Positions 20,484-23,924 of a stretch of DNA of 37,115 bases are shown piece after piece. A model generated the notes under the pieces. The model made no database searches. It worked only from the letters and a program-made list of their open reading frames with translations, and was not told where the DNA came from. The first letter of the stretch is position 1. The number at the start of each line of letters is the position of its first letter. This DNA is from Nitrospirota bacterium (GTDB lineage: Bacteria; Nitrospirota; JACRHL01). The position numbers and the translations under genes were made by a program. The stretch lies in contig JAOUMB010000026.1 in NCBI GenBank assembly GCA_029881725.1, positions 1-37,115 on the forward strand, in the 5' to 3' direction.

Positions 20484-20843
20484 CCTCCGGCGTCCTCCCC
20501 GGACCCACACGGCCCTCCGGGAGGCTCATGGCCACGTGCGTCGTGGAGTGGCCGCCGCTGAGAAGGTCATCTCCGGCAACCTCCTCGGACCCACACGGCC
20601 CTCCGGGAGGCTCATGGCCACGTGCGTCGTGGAGTGGCCGCCGCCAGGAAGGTCACCTCCGGTCACCTCCTCGGACCCACACGGCCCTCCGGGAGGCTCA
20701 TGGCCATGTGCGTCGTGGAGTGGCCGCCACCAGGAAGGTCACCTCCGGTCACCTCCTCGGACCCACCCCTCCGGGATGCTCATGGCCATGTGCGTCGTGG
20801 AGTGGCCGCCGCCAGGAAGGTCATCTCCGGTCACCTCCTCGGA
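20484..20843 (+). repeat. Four tandem copies of an 86-bp unit upstream of iscA
   Basis: Units begin at about 20501, 20587, 20673 and 20759 (the last is 82 bp), with a partial lead-in at 20484. Each contains a direct or near-direct 'GGTCACCTCC', a CCTCCGGGAGG palindrome and an inverted pair GGCCAC/GTGGCC 12 nt apart. In copies 3 and 4 the C-to-T change in the first arm would still pair as G-U in RNA. No stop codon occurs in any forward frame, which produces three spurious overlapping open frames. The array ends 9 bp before the -35 box of iscA. Bases 20350-20483 hold nothing recognisable. Confidence 0.9.
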
Positions 20844-20852
20844 GTTAAAAAT

Positions 20853-20881
20853 TTGACCGACCAAAATGGTCGGGTTATGCT
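20853..20881 (+). promoter_or_regulatory. Sigma-70 promoter of iscA-hscB-hscA
   Basis: TTGACC at 20853-20858, exactly 17 bp, TATGCT at 20876-20881. Transcription should start near 20888. Two palindromic operators overlap it, one filling the spacer and one at the start site. Confidence 0.65.
20857..20873. promoter_or_regulatory. IscR/Rrf2-type operator 1
   Basis: CCGACCAAAATGGTCGG fits the IscR type 1 frame YYGACT-RWWWY-AGTCRR with a symmetrical T-to-C/A-to-G swap in both arms. It fills the promoter spacer, so a bound protein would block RNA polymerase. The regulator gene is not in this window. Confidence 0.6.
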
Positions 20882-20885
20882 TAGT

Positions 20886-20902
20886 CCGACCATTATGGTC
20901 GC
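20886..20902. promoter_or_regulatory. IscR/Rrf2-type operator 2
   Basis: CCGACCATTATGGTCGC is a second copy of the same palindrome centred 29 bp downstream of the first, on the predicted transcription start. The shared core CGACCA-N3-TGGTCG and the AT-rich centre argue for one dimeric regulator binding twice. Confidence 0.6.
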
Positions 20903-20963
20903 CAATAGAGACCGAGCCCGGAGCGTGCTTGTGGCGCCGGGGTATTTGGAGGATTTTTCAAGC

Positions 20964-21314
20964 GTGACCACTGAAACGACCGAAACTTCGTTTTTGACCA
21001 TTGATCCGTCCGCCTCGGCGGCCATCAAGGCGTTGTTCAAGCGGCAGGGCAAGGAGGGGTGTGCGTTCCGCGTGGGCATCGTGGGGGGCGGCTGCTCCGG
21101 GTTGCAGTATGTGTTTTCCGTGGCCGAAAAACCGGCCCTGGACGATCAGGTGGTGCAGGCCGACGGGGTAACCGTGGTGGTTGATCCCAAAAGTGCCGTG
21201 TTCGTGGCCGGTTCCTCGCTGCAGTACGAGCGGAGCATGATGAAGGAGGGCTTTGTGGTGAAGAACCCGAACGCCGACCAGAGCTGCTCCTGCGGCGAAT
21301 CGTTCAACGCCTGA
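20964..21314 (+). CDS. iscA: A-type iron-sulphur carrier protein (IscA/ErpA/HesB family)
   Basis: A-type carriers receive Fe-S clusters and pass them to apo-proteins. The 116-residue protein has the three conserved cysteines: C44 in 'VGGGCSGLQY' and C108, C110 in 'QSCSCGESF'. The first part 'LTIDPSASAAIKALF' is typical. I choose GTG 20964 because GGAGG lies 11 nt upstream; an ATG at 20895 is in frame but would lie within operator 2 and lacks a ribosome site. It leads hscB and hscA, so the symbol iscA follows from context; iscR, iscS, iscU and fdx are not in the window. Confidence 0.88.
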   Translation: MTTETTETSFLTIDPSASAAIKALFKRQGKEGCAFRVGIVGGGCSGLQYVFSVAEKPALDDQVVQADGVTVVVDPKSAVFVAGSSLQYERSMMKEGFVVKNPNADQSCSCGESFNA

Positions 21315-21333: not shown

Positions 21334-22035
21334 ATGAAGGAAATCAAAGTCAAGTGTCTCAGTTGCGGCTCCCTGGAGCGCGGCGATTTCTGCGGCGGCT
21401 GCCACACCATTCTGCCCATTGGCAAGGAGGAGGTGGATTTTTTCAGCATGTTCGGCTTCGAATCGCGCCCGGCGCTGGATGCCATGGCGCTCAAGGAGCG
21501 TTTTCTGGAACTGTCCCACAAACTGCACCCGGACCGCCACAACGCGGAGCAGGGGGACCAGCGCCTCAACGTGCTGACCCTTTCCGCCCAGCTCAATCAG
21601 GGCTACCGCACCCTGCTCGACACCAAGGAGCGCCTGCGCTACCTGGTGGGCAAGCAGACCAACCAGGAGCCGCTGGAGGCCAAGCAGGTGCCGCCGGAGA
21701 TGATGGAACTGTTCTTCGAGGTGCACGACCTGATGGAGGAGACGGACACCTACCTGAAGAACAGGAAGCCAGCCGCCAGCCGGATCGTGGCGGCCCTTTC
21801 CATGGCGGACAGCGGACGCACCGAACTGCTGGACCGCATCAACACCCTGCGCCGCCGGGGCCAGCAGAAGGTGGCCGATGTGGAGGCCGAAATCAACCAG
21901 TTGGACAAACGCTGGGACGACGACGGCGAGCGTCCGGCGATTCTGGAGCGGTGCGCCCGGCTGGCCGACGTGCTGTCCTACATGGGACGCCTGACCCGCT
22001 CCCTGGACGAAAAAGAGCTGAAGCTCGAACTATAG
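21334..22035 (+). CDS. hscB: Fe-S assembly J-domain co-chaperone HscB with N-terminal Cys tetrad
   Basis: HscB brings the scaffold IscU to HscA. The 233-residue protein has a J domain with HPD at 65-67 ('HKLHPDRHN') and the C-terminal three-helix part ('ELFFEVHDLMEETDTYL'). It differs from E. coli HscB (about 171 aa) in two ways: an N-terminal C8xxC11...C20xxC23 tetrad that looks like a zinc knuckle, as in eukaryotic HSC20, and an extra C-terminal helical extension ('QQKVADVEAEINQLDKRW'). ATG 21334 includes the tetrad. It lies 19 bp after iscA and 80 bp before hscA. Confidence 0.92.
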   Translation: MKEIKVKCLSCGSLERGDFCGGCHTILPIGKEEVDFFSMFGFESRPALDAMALKERFLELSHKLHPDRHNAEQGDQRLNVLTLSAQLNQGYRTLLDTKERLRYLVGKQTNQEPLEAKQVPPEMMELFFEVHDLMEETDTYLKNRKPAASRIVAALSMADSGRTELLDRINTLRRRGQQKVADVEAEINQLDKRWDDDGERPAILERCARLADVLSYMGRLTRSLDEKELKLEL

Positions 22036-22115: not shown

Positions 22116-23924
22116 ATGAGCAAGATAATCGGAATTGATCTCGGCACCACCAACAGCGTGGTGAGCGTGATCGACATGGGCGTGCCGGTGGTGATTCCGG
22201 ACGCGGAGGGCAAACGCCTGACCCCCTCGGTGGTGAGCTACGCGGACCCGGAAAAGCCCCTGGTGGGTGACCCGGCGGTGCGCCAGGCGGCGCTGCACCC
22301 GGCGGACACCATCAGTTCGGTCAAGCGCTACATCGGACGGCGCGGCGACGAGATTGCCGAGGACGAACTGCCGCGCACCTACACCGTCATCGGCACGGGC
22401 GACCAGACCGCCGCCGTGGTGGCCGCGGGCAGGGCCCTCAAGCCGGAAGAGGTGTCGTCGGAAATATTGAAAAAGCTCAAGGCCGACGCGGAGCGGTACC
22501 TGGAGGAGCCGGTATCCCAGGCGGTGATTACCGTGCCCGCCTACTTCAACGACGCCCAGCGGGCCGCCACCAAGCGCGCCGGGGAACTGGCCGGGCTGGA
22601 GGTGGAGCGTATCGTCAACGAGCCCACCGCCGCCTGTCTGGCTTACGGCCTGGACCGCACCGAAAACGCCACGGTGGCGGTCTACGACCTGGGGGGCGGC
22701 ACCTTCGACATCTCCATCGTGGAGATCACCAACAAAGTTTTCCGGGTGCTCTCCACCACCGGCAACACCCGCCTGGGGGGGGACGACTTTGACCGCGCCA
22801 TCATGGACTGGCTGCAATTGCAATGTCCGGATGTGGCCCTGGACGGCGACCTGGTGGCCATGGCGCGCCTCAAGGAGGCGGCCGAAAAGGCCAAGATCGC
22901 CCTTTCCGACGCGGACCAGACCGACATCGACATTCCGTTTCTGAAGGGCGACTTCAGCCTCTCGGTGGTGCTCACCCGGGGCACCTTTGAAAGCCTCATC
23001 GCCGCCCGCGTGGACGAAACCCGCGCCGCCTGCCTGCAGGCCCTGCACGATGCGGGACTGAAACCGGCGCAGGTGCATGCGGTGATCCTGGTGGGCGGCT
23101 CCACCCGCATCCCGCTGGTGCGGCACCTGGTGAGCAAGGTGTTCGGGCGGGAACCGGATACCTCGGTGAACCCGGACGAGGCGGTGGCGCTGGGGGCGGG
23201 CATTCAGGCCAGCATCCTCCAGGGCGGCGTGTCCGATACCCTGCTGCTGGACGTCACCCCCCTGTCGTTGGGTATCGAAACCTTCGGCGGGCTGATGAAC
23301 GTGATCATCGCCCGCAACACCACCATTCCCACCAAGGCGGGGGAACTGTTCACCACCGCGGTGGACGACCAGACCGCGGTGAACATTCACGTGCTGCAGG
23401 GGGAGCGCGAAATGGCGGCGGACAACTGGACCCTGGGGCGCTACACCCTGCCGGTGACCCCGGCCCCGGCGGGCAGCCACCGGGTGGGGGTGCAGTTCAC
23501 CATCGACGCCGACGGCATCCTGCACGTGCTGGCCCGCGACACCAATGCGGGAAAGGAAATCAAAGCCGAAGTGAAGGCGGTGGCCGACGTGTCCGACTCG
23601 GAAGTGGAGGCAATGGTGCGCGCCTCCGTATCCCACGCCCAGCAGGACATCCTCAAGCGGCAGTTGGTGGAGGCGCAGATCTCCGGCGACGAAATGCTGC
23701 GCGCCACCCAGTCGGCGCTGGAGAAGTATGGCGACCAGTTGCAGTCCCACGAGCGCACCGCCATCGAGAAGGCATGGCAGGCGGTGCGGCAGGCCATCGA
23801 CAACGACGACCTGAGCAGCCTGAAGGCGGGCAAACAGCAACTGGACGAAGCCACCCAGCGGCTGGCGGACATCATGTTCGGGGCGGCGGTCAAGGACCGC
23901 GCCGAGGCCGGGGCGGAGGGCTGA
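22116..23924 (+). CDS. hscA: Hsp70-type chaperone HscA
   Basis: The 602-residue protein is an Hsp70: '[14 protein letters not shown]' (5-18), '[20 protein letters not shown]', '[13 protein letters not shown]', '[14 protein letters not shown]' in the ATPase domain, '[14 protein letters not shown]' at the linker, and a substrate-binding domain with a helical lid. It is shorter than DnaK and lacks its C-terminal tail, which together with the hscB neighbour supports HscA (release of clusters from IscU). DnaK cannot be excluded by sequence alone, but the context makes it unlikely. No ferredoxin gene follows, unlike in enteric bacteria. Confidence 0.9.

Follow-up and report, generated by a model that had tools for sequence, protein, structure and literature searches.

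Paired palindromes at a Nitrospirota iscA promoter as candidate operators of an ISC-linked Rrf2 repressor, with the ISC genes split into two probably co-regulated operons

The analysed stretch of DNA (the window, 37,115 nucleotides) is contig C55 of a Nitrospirota genome (G000; 2.96 Mb, 126 contigs, 98.35% complete). Downstream of the promoter studied here lies a gene for an A-type carrier of the iscA/erpA type (20964..21314, + strand), which has the Pfam domain Fe-S_biosyn and reaches 113 bits with TIGR00049 (cut-off 58.8). Its GTG start is backed by the alignment with the Nitrospirota loci L022 and L023; these appear to belong to the MAGs G003 and G001, respectively, as the promoter sequences match. 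It is followed by a gene for an hscB-like J-domain co-chaperone (21334..22035, + strand), identified by profile searches and with orthologues in L022 (74% identical) and L023 (63% identical), and by a gene for an hscA-type Hsp70 chaperone (22116..23924, + strand; HSP70 2.6e-195). The Hsp70 passes the HscA model NF003520 (635, cut-off 620) but fits the DnaK model better (737), and the best equivalog model for the carrier is ErpA, with a score under its cut-off. Therefore, iscA and hscA are used here as names by context. The HscB-like protein contains an N-terminal CxxC...CxxC motif (CLSCGSLERGDFCGGC), which resembles a zinc-binding extension.

The promoter of iscA-hscB-hscA is sigma-70-like and consists of the -35 element TTGACC (20853..20858, + strand), a 17-bp spacer (20859-20875) and the -10 element TATGCT (20876..20881, + strand). 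The same TTGACC is found in G001, G002 and G003, the three related genera compared below. Two candidate operator sites, which are not assigned to a strand, overlap this promoter. Site 1, CCGACCAAAATGGTCGG (20857..20873, core 20859-20871), lies within the -35/-10 spacer, and site 2, CCGACCATTATGGTCGC (20886..20902, core 20888-20900), lies at the predicted transcript start, so the complete segment 20853-20902 reads TTGACC-GACCAAAATGGTCGGGT-TATGCT-TAGTCC-GACCATTATGGTCGC. Site 1 is a perfect CCGACC-N5-GGTCGG palindrome and site 2 a one-mismatch copy, 29 bp further on. Both the palindrome pair and the promoter had been reported in the initial annotation, and coordinates, elements and spacer length agree exactly. 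Upstream of the iscA promoter, the gap to the HIT-family gene is filled by a G+C-rich unit of 86 bp repeated four times in tandem (20494-20843); a genome search returned this unit only there, and no link to the operator was found.

In a pattern scan of the window every other place showed at least two mismatches to CCGACC-N5-GGTCGG. The AT-centred form GACCRWWWYGGTC has exactly two matches in the 2.96-Mb genome, both at the iscA promoter, and its reversed-pattern control has none. When CCGACC-N5-GGTCGG alone was searched with up to one mismatch, 38 genome matches were obtained versus 31 for the control, which is not diagnostic in a genome of 65% GC. Being near background, this looser palindrome was rejected as a regulon finder; for the same reason the AT-rich centre matters, and single sites elsewhere in the genome are read as chance. 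Eight further two-mismatch matches in this genome are all located inside long open frames. What sets the iscA palindromes apart is the AT-rich centre together with the neighbouring copy.

The genes iscR, iscS and iscU had been predicted to lie elsewhere in the genome under common control, and they were located on contig C37. A PF02082 search detected three Rrf2 genes in the genome, and the one on C37 is the first gene of an operon iscR-iscS-iscU-fdx-iscX, in which fdx encodes an ISC-type ferredoxin. The promoter of this iscR carries CGACCCTTTTGGTCG and, 16 bp further on, CGACCATTCTGATCG; both were recovered by a genome-wide search with the window motif. A strict search for 16-bp arrays gave one place only in this genome, at iscR. 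The expected sites thus do precede iscR-iscS-iscU-fdx-iscX, and co-regulation of the two operons is predicted from their shared kind of site. As sites of the same kind stand before both halves, one Fe-S-sensing repressor probably keeps them in step. SufB/D were searched in four genomes of the window's family (f1) and not found, while the control was positive in 14/14 reference genomes; therefore, family f1 apparently has no such system besides ISC, and co-regulation of SUF, as described for RisR of M. xanthus, was rejected.

Four genera of family f1 were compared, the window's genome G000 and G001, G002 and G003. All four (4/4) have split ISC operons with sites at both promoters, and the iscA site is retained although the flanks diverge. 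In G001 and G002 the iscA promoter has a single site, which lies in the spacer and takes the position relative to TTGACC that site 1 has in the window. In G003 the downstream site is followed by CGCCAWTA, and a degenerate palindrome lies upstream of it, again 29 bp away. In the window both sites are present. Absence of the palindrome upstream of iscA in close relatives had been named as a refuting condition for the initial reading; a site is present there in 3/3 other genera, so the reading withstood this check. Past the last palindrome a stretch is conserved, which reads CGCCAWTA in family f1 (20901-20908 in the window) or CGGCAATAG in family f9.

The other Nitrospirota families mostly possess one iscRSUA-hscBA operon. 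The 26 iscA loci checked in these families show the contiguous order iscS-iscU-iscA-hscB-hscA; the distance from iscA to the upstream iscR, where measured, is about 2 kb. Their iscR promoters mostly show two to three GAY-N7-RTC palindromes that follow closely on the -10 element and are spaced by exactly 16 bp. The iscR promoters compared numbered 49 and represented nine Nitrospirota families; at least one GAY-N7-RTC pair spaced by 16 bp is present in 41 of them, compared to 0.08% of shuffled sequences, and the distance spectrum contains 66 pairs at 16 bp, 25 at 32 bp and no more than three at any other distance. Most of the remaining eight promoters have a partner with one half-site letter altered; such a partner at the same step occurs in family f8 (GATAC for GAC) and in family f24 (AATC for GATC). 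As many of the 49 genomes are close relatives, the independent support is rather given by the seven families that show the array strictly. The strict array search in 148 genomes yielded 52 forward matches (counted from the table) versus 4 for the control, the majority at iscR. In family f18 (L117, L118, L124) the iscR promoter has sites on either side: a pair in tandem, or nearly so, extends into a TTGACT -35 element, and more palindromes follow after the -10 element. A 16-bp array with a perfect CGACCATAATGGTCG was also seen on contig C14 of G001 (103678-103707; L168 4179-4208), 62-78 bp before a gene for a 70-aa membrane protein. However, the homologues of this gene in G000, G002 and G003 are without the array, and the C14 site was therefore left out of the regulon.

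With a step of 16 bp, neighbouring Rrf2 dimers would sit roughly one and a half turns apart, on opposite faces; their cooperative binding in this arrangement is our conjecture. Tentatively, the Nitrospirota might share an operator code in which two to three GAY-N7-RTC palindromes at exactly 16 bp act as a cooperative multi-dimer Rrf2 switch with overlapping footprints, and when the operon split in one family, the new iscA-hscBA promoter might have kept the half-sites while its spacing changed (to a single site, or to 29 bp), so that it would respond with a different strength. We regard this code as possible, with the balance slightly against it.

The C37 protein has an Rrf2 domain (PF02082 over cut-off; TIGR00738 107.6 versus 73.3). 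It stays far below the cut-offs of the NCBIfam IscR models (64.4 versus 207.55 and 48.1 versus 275) and shares 24% identity with E. coli IscR. The best-scoring named Fe-S regulator model is TIGR02944, with 89.9 bits and again below the cut-off (110.65). Three cysteines are present, Cys93, Cys101 and Cys107, with the spacing X7-X5; three cysteines occur in 49/49 Nitrospirota proteins, with X8 or X9 in others. All 49 proteins have Arg in place of the IscR cluster ligand His107, E/A/K in place of the base-reading IscR residues S40/E43/Q44, and an Asp that aligns with Asp8, a cluster ligand in S. coelicolor NsrR (PMC5411485). At the wing position of Arg59, the conserved minor-groove Arg of IscR and RisR, the four f1 genera have Asn, and a Lys follows three positions later. 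Judged from its sequence, the regulator is an Rrf2 protein and not a canonical IscR.

The initial annotation had fitted both arms to the type 1 sites of IscR except for a paired T-to-C/A-to-G change, and had proposed an Rrf2/IscR regulator with shifted specificity. Compared to the 25-bp E. coli type 1 consensus the sites agree in 18/25 (site 1) and 17/25 (site 2) positions. For the inner 17 bp the values are 15/17 and 14/17, and site 1 differs there only at this pair of positions. The outer AT triplets mismatch in both sites, and the type 1 fit thus holds for the inner part only. The palindromes are very likely operator sites through which an Rrf2 protein controls ISC genes, but the shift in specificity did not stand, because E/A/K is constant in the 49 proteins whose sites carry either C or T at the position in question. 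In the arrays the consensus-T position is C in 6/8 sites of family f1, T in 21/38 and C in 16/38 sites of family f9, and C in 6/11 sites of family f10. A GACC half-site is present at E. coli iscR too (GACCAATTTACTC), as well as in the P. aeruginosa IscR site B (PMC6599224). The mixture of C and T with unchanged reading residues, together with GACC in the E. coli and P. aeruginosa sites, argues for ordinary, natural degeneracy, and shifted IscR specificity was rejected.

The genomes contain the sites, conserved and placed within the promoters, a split operon, and one conserved regulator gene that has sites of this kind in front of it. We consider it highly probable that the candidate operators at iscA are read by the ISC-linked, RisR/IscR-like Rrf2 repressor of C37, and that the ISC genes are split into two operons, each with an operator, which the cluster-loaded dimer represses and the apo-protein releases. 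With iscRSU-fdx-iscX and iscA-hscB-hscA separated and each provided with its own operator copy, a cluster-loaded dimer would bind over spacer, -10 element and start of each promoter as long as Fe-S clusters are sufficient; it would block RNA polymerase, and both operons would be repressed. A shortage of clusters (low iron, oxidants) would make the apo-protein leave the sites, and expression of the two operons would increase together. The position of the sites over spacer and start favours occlusion as the mode of repression; this mode was shown for P. aeruginosa IscR and proposed for RisR. We infer binding, repression and cluster sensing for the C37 protein, with a cluster that would be of the [4Fe-4S] type and held by the three cysteines and possibly Asp9, and by analogy with P. 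aeruginosa IscR and RisR we presume that under iron or oxidative stress it leaves the DNA in a cluster-dependent manner. Counting against this explanation are the 29-bp spacing at iscA versus the 16-bp step at iscR, the single iscA site in G001 and G002, the two other Rrf2 proteins of the genome, and the exchange of Arg59 for Asn.

Other explanations for the palindromes were weighed against this one. One is an operator of a true IscR (IS1 type, 2Fe-2S), with one letter changed per arm and a shifted specificity. For it speak the inner 17 bp of site 1, which match type 1 apart from the T-to-C/A-to-G pair, and P. aeruginosa iscR, which has two tandem type 1 sites, one of them in the spacer and overlapping TTGACC (PMC6599224). 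However, the C37 protein with its 24% identity to E. coli IscR and 64 bits against a cut-off of 207.55 has no His107, S40/E43/Q44 are replaced by E/A/K in 49/49 proteins, the outer AT triplets are absent from the sites, and C and T both occur in the phylum with the same reading residues, so we hold a true IscR to be unlikely. It is very unlikely that the sites are read by another regulator, i.e., the NsrR-like Rrf2 protein of contig C103, the CymR/IscR-like Rrf2 protein of contig C95 or an unrelated factor. Of the three Rrf2 genes, the one on C37 is singled out by linkage and autoregulation only, but the genome-wide site search lists no site close upstream of the C103 or C95 gene, and synteny with iscS/iscU and, in the families examined, the array at its promoter speak for the C37 protein.

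Site 2 could be transcribed within the 5' leader and is able to fold into a short stem, which would suit RNA hairpins rather than DNA operators. This was rejected as extremely improbable, since site 1 lies in the untranscribed spacer and the GAC/GTC letters themselves are kept beyond complementarity, with imperfect sites retaining GAY/RTC. In favour of chance palindromes without function is the near-background number of matches to CCGACC-N5-GGTCGG alone in a G+C-rich genome. Here the strict form is unique to the iscA promoter and kept in four genera, the sites are repeated at the partner operon, and 16-bp arrays occur phylum-wide; contradicted by this conservation, chance has hardly any probability left.

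A literature search found no paper describing an Fe-S assembly regulon or operator code in Nitrospirota, and within the Rrf2 group of RisR no other studied member was found. New here are the 16-bp arrays and the split, putatively co-regulated ISC operon; for Fe-S cluster assembly in Nitrospirota, a regulon and an operator code can now be put to the test. An ISC operon in two pieces with the same operator on both is a clear example of regulatory sites that have followed their genes.

Compared to known systems, the C37 protein shares with the [4Fe-4S] protein NsrR of S. coelicolor the three cysteines and an N-terminal Asp at the fourth ligand position; NsrR senses NO, whereas the C37 gene is linked to iscS/iscU (PMC5411485). 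Its best named model, TIGR02944, describes a SUF system Fe-S cluster assembly regulator, but the gene is linked to isc and not to suf. Like IscR (IS1), it is encoded by the first gene of the isc operon, and the GAC-N7-GTC core, the AT-rich middle and two tandem isc-promoter sites with one in the spacer are known from E. coli and P. aeruginosa (PMC6599224). However, the sites are 25 bp apart there and 29 bp (iscA) or 16 bp (iscR) here (PMC6599224), and the Nitrospirota system has no outer AT triplets, other reading residues, no His107 and no evidence for type 2 sites. In behaviour the closest described relative is RisR of M. xanthus and not IscR. RisR belongs to the Rrf2 group IS6, which also lists Nitrospirae, and it binds an imperfect palindrome with the core GAC-N7-GTC over the -10 element and start of isc, where the holo-form represses (PMC9973013). 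A putatively ISC-regulating Rrf2 protein with three cysteines and GAC-N7-GTC over the -10 element and start of an isc promoter are found here as well. Differences are the cysteine spacing (X9-X5 in RisR, X7-X5 here), Arg59, which RisR keeps and which is Asn here, the control of suf by RisR whereas SUF was not found in family f1, and the 16-bp arrays and split isc operon, which are not described for RisR (PMC9973013). Because of the Asn at position 59, and as membership in IS6 is only putative, the C37 protein best resembles RisR in the sense that it probably works like RisR, not that it is RisR.
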